Of a DNA stretch of 29,189 nucleotides, positions 16,679-21,300 are shown in pieces; position 1 is the stretch's first letter, and every line of letters begins with the position of its first letter. This DNA is from a virus. The notes under the pieces were generated by a model. The model was not told the origin of the DNA. It saw only the letters and a list, made by a program, of their open reading frames with translations, and did no database searches. Position numbers and translations under genes: made by a program. Location: positions 1 to 29,189 of the IMG/VR virus record IMGVR_UViG_3300023223_000443, one strand, 5' to 3'.

Positions 16679-17350
16679 ATGCCCATGACCAGGGAACTCA
16701 AAAAAAGGTTCATGGAGGTGGAGGACCGGATCTCCAAACTGGAGAAACGGGGCAAGACCCAGGTCCAGAAAACCAACGGTGAGGACCTGGACACCGGCAG
16801 TCCAAGTGACCTGGAGTCCAGACTGGAAACCATTGAGATGGTTCTCCAGATCCCAGGACCAACGGACGGAGAAACAGAGGTCTTGTCTGCCTGGAGACAG
16901 ATCATTGAGAACAAGTTGGACAACATTGAGACGGTCCTGGTGATGCCAGGGGAGGACGGTTTCCTCTCTGGGTTTGCAAACAAAGTGGACAAGGTGGTGA
17001 CCAGTCTCAAGGAACGGGTCCTGAAACTGGAACAGATCCCAGACCCTTCAGCAACCGTCCTGGAGTTTGATGACCGTCTTGCAAAACTGGAGAAACGGGT
17101 CAAGACATTTCCCCACACGGTCCACGGGAAACCTCTCATTTCCTGGGTCACCTCAGTGGAGGAACGGGTCCTTGAACTGGAGGTCAAACCAGTGGCAGGG
17201 ACATTGAGCAACATCATGCAGGGCGTCAATCAGGATATAGAGGGAACCAACAGAGAGGTGAAAGAACTCCGGTCCAGACTCCGGTGGACCACCTGGTTGT
17301 CCCTCTGCCTCTTTGCCCTGATCATCCTCACCATCATCACCCTCCTCTGA
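16679..17350 (+). CDS. Coiled-coil protein with C-terminal membrane anchor
   Basis: 223-aa protein, mostly coiled coil, with an internal duplication. DRISKLEKRGKT leading to SDLESRLETIE (about residues 17-54) is echoed by DRLAKLEKRVKT leading to SVEERVLELE (about 128-164). A single hydrophobic segment at the very C-terminus (WLSLCLFALIILTIITLL) would anchor it in the membrane, with the coiled coil facing the cytoplasm or periplasm. It ends the late operon; the 1.2-kb non-coding region follows. Role unknown: an envelope-spanning lysis factor or a membrane scaffold are both possible. Confidence 0.6.
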   Translation: MPMTRELKKRFMEVEDRISKLEKRGKTQVQKTNGEDLDTGSPSDLESRLETIEMVLQIPGPTDGETEVLSAWRQIIENKLDNIETVLVMPGEDGFLSGFANKVDKVVTSLKERVLKLEQIPDPSATVLEFDDRLAKLEKRVKTFPHTVHGKPLISWVTSVEERVLELEVKPVAGTLSNIMQGVNQDIEGTNREVKELRSRLRWTTWLSLCLFALIILTIITLL

Positions 17351-17446
17351 CCCATTCCTGGGTCACCCCAAAAAACAGATCCATTTCCTGGAACCCAACA
17401 ACCACGGGAGTTCTGTGTCCAACGATCAATGTGGGGTCAAGACCCT

Positions 17447-17498
17447 TTGTCAAGAGAAATGAGAAAGTCTTGACAAGTTTGTCAATTATAATTGACAG
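17447..17498 (+). promoter_or_regulatory. Nested TTGACA palindromes, probable operator
   Basis: TTGTCAA (17447-17453), TTGACAA-GT-TTGTCAA (17470-17485) and the perfect 18-bp palindrome TGTCAATTATAATTGACA (17480-17497) share the half-site TTGACA, four copies in all. The larger palindrome contains a perfect -10 hexamer TATAAT (17487-17492), but no good -35 lies 16-18 bases upstream. A dimeric repressor or activator covering a promoter is the likely reading. Confidence 0.6.
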
Positions 17499-17617
17499 AC
17501 CTGGACCGTCCCGTCAGCTATTGTGGACACCGGCAGGGGACCGTGGACGGGCGCACAGAGTTCAGTCCGGTGATGGCAGGGTCCTGACCCCAGAACCGGC
17601 AGGACAGGTCAAGAATT

Positions 17618-17905
17618 TTGCCCGTTTCGGATGGAGACAGGCTGGATTATGCACCCCTTTTTGGACCCCAAGATGACCTCAAGTGGAACCCTTTTGGAAG
17701 GGGGGGGACCCCTGGCCCAGGACCCCCTCCCTGTAGGGGACCCTCCCTGGAGGACACCCTCCCTCCAGGGGACCCTCCCTCCAGGGGACCCTCCCTGGAG
17801 GACCCCCTCCCTGTAGGGAGCCACCCCTGGGAAGAAGAAGAAGAAGTAGAAGTAGAAGAAGAAGAAGAAGAAGAAGCAAGAACCTACCAGGGAGAAGATA
17901 TTTGA
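17618..17905 (+). CDS. Doubtful acidic low-complexity ORF
   Basis: A 95-aa frame from a TTG start with no clear ribosome site. It runs through both the 16-bp repeats and the GAA tract, giving RGPSLED twice and a tail of 13 glutamates broken by two valines and an alanine-rich end. The repeats explain the open frame without any coding role, since their 16-bp period shifts frame at each unit. Listed only because it is the longest forward frame in the region. Confidence 0.15.
   Translation: MPVSDGDRLDYAPLFGPQDDLKWNPFGRGGTPGPGPPPCRGPSLEDTLPPGDPPSRGPSLEDPLPVGSHPWEEEEEVEVEEEEEEEARTYQGEDI
17725..17820 (+). repeat. Six 16-bp tandem repeats (iteron-like)
   Basis: CCCTCCCT recurs at 17725, 17741, 17757, 17773, 17789 and 17805, an exact 16-bp period. 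The rest of each unit varies in a mirrored order: GTAGGGGA, GGAGGACA, CCAGGGGA, CCAGGGGA, GGAGGACC, GTAGGGAG. A 16-bp period is not a multiple of three, so selection on DNA rather than protein is likely. The complementary strand carries GGGAGGG in every unit and could form G-quadruplexes. Confidence 0.88.
17831..17875 (+). repeat. GAA triplet tract
   Basis: Fifteen triplets: five GAA, GTA, GAA, GTA, then seven GAA. Apart from two T bases it is pure purine on this strand and directly follows the 16-bp repeats. Such tracts can form triplex DNA or ease unwinding near origins. If translated in the frame of 17618-17905 it gives a glutamate run. Confidence 0.85.
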
Positions 17906-18031
17906 GGAAAGAGGGGGACCTCAGAACGGACGGAAAATTTCCTGTTGTGTTTGTGATCCTGTGATTGTAAGATGACCCCACTGTGAGAGAGACACGGAAA
18001 ATCAAAACAGACTTTCCCAGGTTGACGGGGT

Positions 18032-18046
18032 GGGGAATGTTTCCCC
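18032..18046 (+). promoter_or_regulatory. Palindromic element GGGGAA-TGT-TTCCCC
   Basis: Perfect 6-bp inverted repeat with a 3-base centre. A close relative, GGAA-TG-TTCC, lies at 18114-18123. Both are next to a CAG(G)TTGAC sequence (18018-18026 upstream of this one, 18123-18130 downstream of the other). The pair may bind a regulatory protein. Confidence 0.4.
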
Positions 18047-18113
18047 TCAGTTGTGTGACTTGCACCAACTGACTTCATAGGTGACCCACGGGAGACTGTT
18101 TTCATCTCCCTTG

Positions 18114-18123
18114 GGAATGTTCC
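18114..18123 (+). promoter_or_regulatory. Palindromic element GGAA-TG-TTCC
   Basis: Perfect short inverted repeat, related in sequence to 18032-18046, about 80 bases downstream. A short hairpin GGGAGA/TCTCCC (18090-18110) lies just before it. Confidence 0.4.
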
Positions 18124-18368
18124 AGTTGACCTGGGGATTCACCCTCCCTCTCCCACGGGTTGATAGCGGTGGTCTGATCACCTCCTCTGTGTGTTGGGAG
18201 ATGGGTGTCCAGGGGGAGTCAGACGGGGGTTCTTGTCTCCATTCTCTCCCCCGTTGGCACAAGGTCACACCAGAGGACATTGAACGAGATGGGCAAGGAC
18301 GGATGCAATCAGACTGTGAACACGGACGCAGGACAATCCGTCACGGTGAGTGACACGGGGTGGTCCCT

Positions 18369-18398
18369 TTGACAACCTCAGTCTGGGGATCGTATGGG
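18369..18398 (+). promoter_or_regulatory. Weak promoter candidate before the replication operon
   Basis: TTGACA (18369-18374) is a perfect -35 hexamer; 18 bases downstream is TATGGG (18393-18398), only a partial -10. It points toward the zinc-finger and ERF genes. The TTGACAA also matches the half-site of the operator cluster at 17447-17498, so regulation by the same protein is possible. Confidence 0.35.
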
Positions 18399-18442
18399 GT
18401 GACCTCACCAAAAGAATTGAAACAATGAACTTGAGTTGTCAG

Positions 18443-18473
18443 GTCCCAAGAACTCTGACTGAGAGTCTGGGAC
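18443..18473 (+). promoter_or_regulatory. Two-part RNA hairpin, possible attenuator
   Basis: GTCCCA (18443-18448) pairs with TGGGAC (18468-18473), and inside it ACTCT (18452-18456) pairs with AGAGT (18462-18466). The bases GGTCCCAA (18442-18449) can instead pair with TTGGGACC (18518-18525), which is followed by six T (18531-18536). Two competing folds upstream of an early operon resemble an attenuation or antitermination switch. Confidence 0.45.
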
Positions 18474-18555
18474 GGATCTTTCACGGACCTAAACGGATGA
18501 CAGTGAGGGTGTGTCCTTTGGGACCTGGCATTTTTTAGGCAGAGAGGGGAGTTGA

Positions 18556-18849
18556 GTGGACCCCAGGCAAACCGGCAAAGTCAGACCAACCCTGGAGGTC
18601 ATCCCTCCAAAATCCAAAAAACTGAAGGTGGACAAAGCCAAACCTGGCAGTGATGTTGTCCGGTTCTGGTGGAAGTGCAAGACCTGTGGGGCAACTGGAG
18701 TGATTGCCCTCCCAGGACGGTCAAGGTCTGACCGTCTCATCACCGGCATGGAGGAACAACACAAACGGGCGTCACCGGATTGTCCAAAAACCAGGGGTCA
18801 GATCCAGGATGAGTTTTGGGGAGAGAAAGGGACACTCAGAATTGAATGA
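18556..18849 (+). CDS. C2HC zinc-finger protein, first gene of the replication operon
   Basis: 97-aa protein from a GTG start preceded by GAGGGGA. After a basic N-terminus (PPKSKKLKVDKAK) it shows WWKCKTCGATGVI, then EEQHKRASPDCP: two cysteines, a histidine and a cysteine spaced to hold one zinc. The same pattern occurs in the protein at 21046-21300, so the two are paralogues. It probably binds nucleic acid or protein within the replication machinery; no characterised family recognised. Confidence 0.62.
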   Translation: MDPRQTGKVRPTLEVIPPKSKKLKVDKAKPGSDVVRFWWKCKTCGATGVIALPGRSRSDRLITGMEEQHKRASPDCPKTRGQIQDEFWGEKGTLRIE

Positions 18850-18983: not shown

Positions 18984-19838
18984 ATGGCAACACGGCAGAA
19001 GAAAGAAAAAGAGAAAACCCCACCAGTTGAATCCAAGGAAAAGAAAAAAGACACCCCATCAAAAGACCCAGAGGTTGCCAACCCCCATGAGGGTGACTCA
19101 TCCACAATGGGTTGGAAACTTGCAAAGGTTTTGGGTGAGATCCACACCATTCCAAAAGAGGGATACAACCCACACTTTGAATATCACTATGTGAAAGAGG
19201 ACACCCTGACTGAACACATCCGTCCCCTCCTGGCAAAGTGGGGGATGTCATTGGTGTTTGGTGCAGAGAGGATTGAGGACCTGGCAACCGGTGATGACCG
19301 TGGGACCTGGACCAGGGTGTGGTGCCGGTTCACTCTCTTTGACTGTGACGGTCATGAGTTCTCCGTCCTATGCCCAGGTGAGGGGACGGATGCCAAACAC
19401 CCAGACAAAGCCCTCTATAAGGCAATGACGGGTGCCACAAAATATTTCCTATATAAGACTTTCCTGGTGTCCACGGGTGACGATCCTGAGAGGGATGATG
19501 ACCCAAACTCAACCACCCCACCAAAGGGAGGAAAGAAAAAACAGTCAGCAAAGAAGAACACCCAGACACCACAGACCCAGGATGCAAACACCCCAGACAT
19601 GATGACCTCAGATCAGTTGGAGGAGTTGGAAAAGTTCCAGAAGAATCAAGACAATTTCAGTGAGCAACTGGTCAAGGTCCTGGATGACATCTTGAAACGT
19701 GGTGGGACTGAGGGGTCTGCCGGTAGAATAATTGCAGAGTGCAAACGTCAGAACAAAGATGTGGAGGACAAGGAAAAGCAAGAGGAGAAAACACCTGGAG
19801 AGACACCCCAAGAACCTGATGAGGAGGTCCCCTTTTGA
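18984..19838 (+). CDS. erf: ERF-family ssDNA annealing protein
   Basis: 284-aa single-strand annealing recombinase of the ERF family, used for phage DNA recombination and replication restart. A charged N-terminal extension (1-40) precedes the ERF core (about 42-165): LAKVLGEIHTIPKEGYNPHF, YHYVKEDTLTEHIRPLLAK, and the hallmark GEGTDAKHPDKALYKAMTG followed by ATKYFLYKTFLVSTGDDPE. A Lys/Thr/Gln-rich linker (175-205) and a C-terminal helical part follow. The extreme C-terminus EPDEEVPF looks like the acidic tip of SSB proteins. AGGTCCTGAC precedes the ATG. Next to Gp157-like and replication genes, as is usual. Confidence 0.88.
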   Translation: MATRQKKEKEKTPPVESKEKKKDTPSKDPEVANPHEGDSSTMGWKLAKVLGEIHTIPKEGYNPHFEYHYVKEDTLTEHIRPLLAKWGMSLVFGAERIEDLATGDDRGTWTRVWCRFTLFDCDGHEFSVLCPGEGTDAKHPDKALYKAMTGATKYFLYKTFLVSTGDDPERDDDPNSTTPPKGGKKKQSAKKNTQTPQTQDANTPDMMTSDQLEELEKFQKNQDNFSEQLVKVLDDILKRGGTEGSAGRIIAECKRQNKDVEDKEKQEEKTPGETPQEPDEEVPF

Positions 19839-20017: not shown

Positions 20018-20570
20018 GGAAATTGAGAGAGGTGGATTGGAAAAGGAAATTGAACTTGATGGACCAATGGACATTGAGAAGTTGTTGGAGGAGAACGGTG
20101 GGGAATTGACCCCAGAGATTGAGGCAGAGTATGACCGGATTCACGGTGATGATTTCCCCAAGATCGTGGAGGACAGAATTAGGTTCATCAAACGGATGGA
20201 GGCAATGTCTGACGGACTCAAGGCAGAGGCAGGAGCAATGACACTGATTGCAAAATCAAAACTGGCAGCAGCAGACCAGGTGAAAAGAACTCTGGTTGCT
20301 GAAATGGGACTCAAGGGTCAGAGGAAAATTCTGACAGGACCCTGGACTGTTTCACTGGCAAAGAAACCACCACGGATCACTCTGAAAGAGGGGACTGATC
20401 TCAAGAACATTGAGTCCAGTTTGAAACGGCACATCCCAGAGACGTGGGAACTTGACAAGATGGAGGTCAGGAAATCTCTCAAGAACAGAGGACTGATCCC
20501 AACAGAGATTGGACGGTGGGAGGTTGAGGATTTTGACGTGGAGATTGCAGAACGTCTGAACATCAGATGA
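20010..20570 (+). CDS. Siphovirus Gp157-like protein
   Basis: 186-aa helical protein similar to the Gp157 family found beside annealases and SSBs in siphoviruses, where it may assist recombination or give resistance to other phages. The expected layout is seen: an acidic N-terminus, long coiled helices (DRIRFIKRMEAMSDGLKAEA, then LAAADQVKRTLVAEMGLKG), a small beta region (KILTGPWTVSLAKKPPRI) and a C-terminal part with ETWELDKMEVRKSLKNRG. The ATGA start overlaps the membrane protein gene. Confidence 0.7.
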   Translation: MNEEIERGGLEKEIELDGPMDIEKLLEENGGELTPEIEAEYDRIHGDDFPKIVEDRIRFIKRMEAMSDGLKAEAGAMTLIAKSKLAAADQVKRTLVAEMGLKGQRKILTGPWTVSLAKKPPRITLKEGTDLKNIESSLKRHIPETWELDKMEVRKSLKNRGLIPTEIGRWEVEDFDVEIAERLNIR

Positions 20571-20587
20571 GATCAGGAGGGGGTTCA

Positions 20588-21049
20588 GTGAGAAAGAGAT
20601 ACATCCACACCAAGTTTTGGTATGACAAGAAAGTGAGGCAGTGTCACTGGTTGGAGAAACTGATCCTCCTCCACCTCCAGTTGAGAGAGGAGATGACAAC
20701 CATTGGTGCAATCACCACAACGGTGACCATGATCTGCACCCTGCTGAATGGAGAACGGGGCAGGAACACCCTGACACCTGAACTCCCAAAGATCACAGAA
20801 AAACACGTCACCAAATGTCTGAAGTCAATCAAGAAACGGGGCATTGTGGACATCCAGAACAGGGCAGGGGTCACCATCTATTTTTACAATTTTCTGAGGT
20901 ATAACAACTGGAGTCCGTCCGTTTATAATTCATTTCCATTGGTGGTCAGAGAGAAGATCCCAGAGGGTCCAATCCAAGAGGTGGTCAGAGAAAACACCAT
21001 TGGGTGGATGGAGGACAACGGCATCATGATCCCCCAGGAGTGGCAATGA
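20588..21049 (+). CDS. Winged-helix replication initiation protein
   Basis: 153-aa protein resembling N-terminal domains of phage replisome organisers. KRYIHTKFWYDKKVRQC is the common opening strand-helix, followed by WLEKLILLHLQLREEMTT and a winged-helix pattern ending in ITEKHVTKCLKSIKKRGIVD and a beta wing. It lacks the helicase-loader domain of longer relatives, so it may act with the next genes or with host DnaB. GTG 20588 is preferred: AGGAGG lies 7 bases upstream. An upstream ATG at 20567 has no ribosome site but overlaps the Gp157-like stop. Confidence 0.6.
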   Translation: MRKRYIHTKFWYDKKVRQCHWLEKLILLHLQLREEMTTIGAITTTVTMICTLLNGERGRNTLTPELPKITEKHVTKCLKSIKKRGIVDIQNRAGVTIYFYNFLRYNNWSPSVYNSFPLVVREKIPEGPIQEVVRENTIGWMEDNGIMIPQEWQ

Positions 21050-21300
21050 AACACCCCCTGGATGACAAACCTGGAGTGGACAAAAAACTCCTAGACCAGG
21101 CAAAGCAAATGGTGATGGAGGAGTTTCTTAAAATGGCAGAGGAGAGAGGTCAGACGGTTGTGGTCTGGGGATGTCTGAGTTGTGGAGGTGATGGGGTTGT
21201 GTTGATTGACAAAGGGTTTGAAAACTTTTCAAATGCCGTTGAGGAGGATCACAAATTGGACAGTCCATCCTGTCAAGACTTCCGTCCAAGGGATCTGTGA
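21046..21300 (+). CDS. C2HC zinc-finger protein, paralogue of 18556-18849
   Basis: 84-aa protein. A helical N-terminus (LLDQAKQMVMEEFLKMAEE) leads into VVWGCLSCGGDGVVLIDKG, then EEDHKLDSPSCQDF. The order W-C..C-G, ...EE.HK..SP.C matches the protein at 18556-18849 and would hold a zinc ion. ATG 21046 is chosen for its ATGA overlap; an earlier in-frame start at 21004 would lie inside the replication protein gene. Its position between replication initiator and helicase suggests a helper in replication. Confidence 0.6.
   Translation: MKHPLDDKPGVDKKLLDQAKQMVMEEFLKMAEERGQTVVVWGCLSCGGDGVVLIDKGFENFSNAVEEDHKLDSPSCQDFRPRDL

Follow-up and report, generated by a model that had tools for sequence, protein, structure and literature searches.

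A mirror-ordered array of six 16-bp repeats in a positionally conserved non-coding interval of an uncultured tailed phage is probably an ordinary tandem-repeat expansion

In the oriR replication origin of the Bacillus phage SPP1, direct repeats and an AT-rich element lie in a long intergenic interval (PMC6316719). This gp38-type repeat cluster is located outside the replication and initiator genes, and SPP1 also has oriL, with the same repeats, in gene 38. The plasmid iteron origins of RK2, F, and R6K and the lambda ori contain several direct repeats in tandem as well, and half-turn changes between plasmid iterons disturb the binding of Rep (PMC10797057). Minisatellite and microsatellite arrays in non-coding DNA are likewise built of head-to-tail units of fixed length, with an exact period above chance. 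Here, we describe an array that resembles each of these systems in part and that is probably a real, unusual-looking tandem-repeat expansion of an ordinary sort.

The analyzed window was the whole virus record IMGVR_UViG_3300023223_000443 (29,189 bases), which derives from an uncultured tailed phage. In this window, the largest non-coding interval separates the lysis and coiled-coil genes from the recombination and replication genes, all of which are on the plus strand (Table 1). In the codon-usage test, the ORFs inside this interval scored 0.01–0.26, compared with 0.32–0.63 for the conserved genes. The array and the adjoining GAA tract do lie inside open frames, and they could be translated in a plus-strand ORF (17618–17905), whose product would have a Glu-rich tail preceded by two 16-residue repeats, or in a minus-strand ORF (17679–18068). 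These two ORFs scored 0.12 and 0.09, respectively, and have TTG starts, and the plus-strand frame showed no similarity to known families; a coding array is thus highly improbable and was rejected on the codon score.

Table 1. Coordinates of the features in and around the non-coding interval.
Feature	Position	Strand	Basis or remark
Predicted coiled-coil protein gene, left flank	16679–17350	+	Codon score 0.51
Largest non-coding interval	17351–18555		
Four TTGTCAA/TTGACA half-sites as dyads	17447–17497		Candidate operator, promoter, or unwinding element
Complement rich in G runs, with canonical G-quadruplex motifs	17709–17820	-	G4 motif search
Six 16-bp tandem units, core order GT-GG-CC-CC-GG-GT	17725–17820	+	Sequence comparison, shuffles
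Perfect 9-bp inverted repeat, units 2 and 3	17745–17770		Inverted-repeat search
Perfect 9-bp inverted repeat, units 4 and 5	17778–17801		Inverted-repeat search
Interrupted GAA trinucleotide tract	17831–17882	+	Read from sequence
Small gene, possible zinc-ribbon protein, right flank	18556–18849	+	Weak gene call; codon score 0.28; Cys pattern in translation
Erf-like single-strand annealing protein gene	18984–19838	+	PF04404, E 3.6e-12; phrog_155, E 1.3e-30
Predicted helix-turn-helix (HTH) protein gene 5′ of helicase, candidate initiator	20567–21049	+	HxlR HTH match, E 7e-4, weak, below cut-off

The product of the left flanking gene gave a weak match to CCDC-167, which was below the cut-off. On the right, the predicted proteins of 18556–18849 and 21004–21300 share a Cys-x-x-Cys-Gly ... 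His ... Ser-Pro-x-Cys pattern in their translations, and they may be paralogous zinc-ribbon proteins. The Erf-like gene is the first clear gene of a DNA-metabolism module, which comprises genes for Erf, a Gp157-like protein, the HTH protein, a helicase, and a primase. An Rfam search of the interval returned no family match, and a known RNA element was rejected on this ground; furthermore, promoter and terminator consensus matches in the interval did not exceed chance. The dyad cluster in the left part of the interval ends in TGTCAATTATAATTGACA (17480–17497), which is unique in the window as a perfect 18-bp palindrome, and is accompanied by a TATAAT, one of two such sites on the plus strand of the window. 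The AT-rich stretch at 17446–17495 shares with one other stretch the highest AT content of any 50 bp in the window, and it lies 230 bp to the left of the array.

The six units of the array start at 17725, 17741, 17757, 17773, 17789, and 17805 and continue without gaps to the end of the sixth. In order, they read CCCTCCCTGTAGGGGA, CCCTCCCTGGAGGACA, CCCTCCCTCCAGGGGA, CCCTCCCTCCAGGGGA, CCCTCCCTGGAGGACC, and CCCTCCCTGTAGGGAG. All six share the first eight bases, CCCTCCCT, and AGG at positions 11–13, whereas positions 9–10 and the last three positions vary. With the AG that follows, the variable cores read GTAG-GGAG-CCAG-CCAG-GGAG-GTAG, which is, unit by unit, the 1-2-3-3-2-1 order described in the original prediction. 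Identity is complete only between units 3 and 4; units 2 and 5 are one base apart, and units 1 and 6 are two bases apart. Each unit contains the near-dyad core CCCT-NN-AGG, with the changes falling at the dyad center and in the tail, and the array has a GC content of 72%. A candidate degenerate seventh copy at 17821 matched 8 of the 14 consensus positions, compared with only 6 of 14 in the stretch 5′ of unit 1.

The best lag-16 self-match in the array was 64 of 80 positions, compared with at most 42 in local dinucleotide shuffles (n = 2000) and at most 39 of 80 in shuffles of the whole window (n = 30). The predicted exact 16-bp period, followed by a GAA tract, is therefore real and far above the shuffled expectation. 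Under scattered mutation, changes confined to at most five columns had a P of 0.15, and a run of eight unchanged columns had a borderline P of 0.04; the changes among the units are thus compatible with scattered mutation. The array was absent from the viral contigs searched with two patterns, a search of phage records with the whole spacer gave no array match, and the array was not found in plasmid records. The adjoining tract consists of approximately 17 GAA triplets with two GTA interruptions and, at 17854, contains a homopurine run of 23 nt, longer than any other in the window. The presence of a trinucleotide tract beside the array suggests a slippage-prone stretch.

We further assessed how readily the mirrored order could arise. 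Among the permutations of a set in which three types are each present twice, 6 of 90 (6.7%) are mirror symmetric, so the order, which was spotted post hoc, is weak evidence by itself. In simulations of uniform slippage, in which every unit was equally likely to duplicate and new types arose by mutation, the mirrored order appeared in 0.1–0.4% of the arrays with two copies of three types. Plain uniform slippage was thus rejected as a common source of this order, and a preference for identical neighbors, which is the expectation for homology-dependent slippage, has to be assumed if the array grew by expansion. When this preference was strong, the mirrored order appeared in 17–23% of such outcomes, and when it was weaker, in 3–4%; duplication at the array center or of the newest unit gave 3–31%. 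The earlier statement that simple slippage does not make a symmetric arrangement therefore applies to uniform slippage but not to slippage among identical neighbors (3–23%). The mirrored order could come from ordinary growth of the repeats and does not prove a function. It is very unlikely that the order was selected, with units 1–3 and 6–4 as symmetric half-sites around a center at 17772/17773 that would be read by a phage protein assembling outwards, for example, in starting replication or in bracketing the late/early boundary.

Two perfect inverted repeats were found in the array, CCCTGGAGG/CCTCCAGGG in units 2 and 3 and CCTCCAGGG/CCCTGGAGG in units 4 and 5. Two or more such repeats occurred in 33 of 3000 shuffles, compared with 192 of 720 arrays in which the six units were reordered, indicating that they follow from the unit types. 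The fold energy of the array was no better than that of shuffles, either as RNA (z 0.02) or as DNA (z -0.65), and strong secondary structure at the array was rejected. The expectation of a G-quadruplex-prone complement was correct in location, since the only two canonical motifs of the window (loops up to 7) both lie on the minus strand of the array, but shuffled sequence contained 4.0 per window on average. The many C and G runs in the region are in line with the genome-wide dinucleotide bias.

An operator or nucleoprotein site for early transcription, or a barrier between late and early transcription, was considered as an alternative to an origin. The array is located at the boundary of two modules transcribed in one direction, and its dyad cores, together with the hairpin and G-quadruplex potential of the minus strand, would suit such a site. 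However, no intrinsic terminator (a GC-rich hairpin followed by a T run) was present at the array on either strand, which led us to reject a terminator there; the fold energies equal those of shuffles, and the TTGTCAA dyads are better operator candidates. We consider this role of the array doubtful.

Word usage was also unusual on the scale of the genome. Across the whole window, self-complementary dinucleotides are extremely depleted (TA, CG, and GC at 0.15, 0.32, and 0.42 of expectation, respectively), whereas AT is normal, and the same depletion was observed in the fragments L033 and L034 and partly in L035. T|A across codon junctions was seen 37 times compared with 400 expected, and the depletion extends to synonymous choice, with GTA accounting for 5 of 409 Val codons. 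The collinear relative described below does not show the TA, CG, and GC depletion, and it avoids GTAG/CTAC (0.07 of the Markov expectation) and GTTC/GAAC (0.16). These patterns look like lineage-specific word avoidance at the DNA level.

Searches with the helicase, Erf, and lipoprotein yielded only one collinear contig that covers the interval, and a scan of genome contigs added nothing of use; the nearest fragments, L033 and L034 (74–83% DNA identity), end before it. This relative, IMGVR_UViG_3300038548_000183 (48.5 kb), matches the window collinearly from the tail genes to a point past the primase, with protein identities of 31–82%. Its matching non-coding interval (L010 8690–9931, 1.24 kb) is at the same place and of nearly equal length. 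The 16-bp array is absent from the relative; its interval contains five GATAnCCTATC sites in AT-rich DNA (three exact and two with one mismatch, with spacings of 21, 18, 25, and 18 bp), which are clustered nowhere else. The comparison with relatives thus gave a divided answer, in that a repeat cluster was present at the same place but no array of this kind. Because the relative has an interval at this place with other repeats, the place and length of the interval appear to be kept while the repeated sites are replaced. TTTACGA palindromes and a 12-bp inverted repeat (ACGTTATCGGAT/ATCCGATAACGT, with 50 bp between the arms) were also observed in the interval of the relative. The relative further encodes a fusion of a ParB-like protein and a DNA methyltransferase (L078 3712–4926, minus strand; phrog_498, E 5e-103) and a phage topoisomerase (phrog_6247), both far from the replication genes.

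The relative also bears on the prediction that the array is a DNA packaging signal, either a pac site or a cos-associated one. The presence of repeats in non-coding DNA of a tailed phage would be in keeping with such a signal. Packaging sites are usually at or near the terminase genes, and the relative has its large terminase gene at 45.2–46.4 kb and the interval at 19.5–20.7 kb. This distance of approximately 25 kb makes a packaging signal extremely unlikely, and a pac or cos site was rejected.

An origin is a less remote reading, in which the six units would be iteron-like sites for a phage initiator, perhaps the HTH protein of 20567–21049, and DNA melting would occur in the TTGTCAA/TATAAT stretch or in the GAA tract. 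As in SPP1 oriR, direct repeats of one word (six units) are clustered and an AT-rich element is present in a long intergenic interval that lies apart from the replication and initiator genes. Repeats are also clustered at the matching place of the relative, in AT-rich DNA, and the near-dyad core is retained in all units. The HTH protein is kept in the relative at 31% identity, although the confidence of its structure model was too low for a fold search to identify the fold. The GAA tract alongside reaches at best 62% AT. Unlike in SPP1, the AT-rich element lies 230 bp from the array, which is GC rich and strictly tandem; all matches to CCCTCCCTNNAGG in a whole-window search fall inside the array, and the repeats have no second site of the oriL type. 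Among the genes scanned, no Rep-, O-, or gp38-like initiator family was recognized, with only the weak HTH match as a candidate, and neither a helicase loader nor a DnaB-type helicase was recognized. Unlike in RK2, F, R6K, and lambda, the array lies outside an initiator gene, and its exact 16-bp period corresponds to approximately 1.5 helical turns, so adjacent units lie on opposite faces of the helix and lack the helical-phase spacing of iteron origins. GC skew showed no sign change in either the window or the relative. Taken together, an origin at this interval with the six units as its iterons is a tentative and rather unlikely reading; a direct role of the array as initiator-binding iterons is possible, but the case for the array itself as iterons is weak.

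The interval at 17351–18555 is probably a positionally conserved, sequence-labile control region that contains early operators and possibly an origin. The original prediction is partly supported: a place-conserved, repeat-filled non-coding interval suits a control or origin region, whereas nothing in the evidence needs an element of an undescribed kind. With moderate confidence, we regard the interval as the main non-coding control region of the phage, in which the array and the GAA tract are tolerated tandem-repeat expansions. Late transcription of the structural and lysis genes would end in this interval, and the early recombination and replication operon would start there; its regulatory sites would change fast between lineages, while the place and length stay. 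The array and the tract would most likely be local expansions tolerated in the spacer, with no essential role for the array. A GC-rich 16-bp word may have been duplicated again and again, and the identical central units 3 and 4 would duplicate more readily than the diverged outer ones, giving the nested 1-2-3-3-2-1 order. The partial complementarity of units 2/3 and 4/5 would be happenstance and would give small hairpins. The identical center, the diverged outer units, and the possible degenerate copy at the right end resemble tandem arrays that are homogenized at the center. As in minisatellite-type arrays, a second slippage-prone tract adjoins the array, and the array is not seen in the relative; unlike in those arrays, the core order is mirror symmetric, which uniform slippage seldom gives.

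Unless a protein that reads it is demonstrated, the array alone is of little importance, and the control region is a more worthwhile subject than the mirrored order. If the interval is an origin or an early control region, collinear sister phages would keep its place and exchange all of its repeated sites. If this is true, such regions in uncultured phages would be findable by position rather than by sequence.
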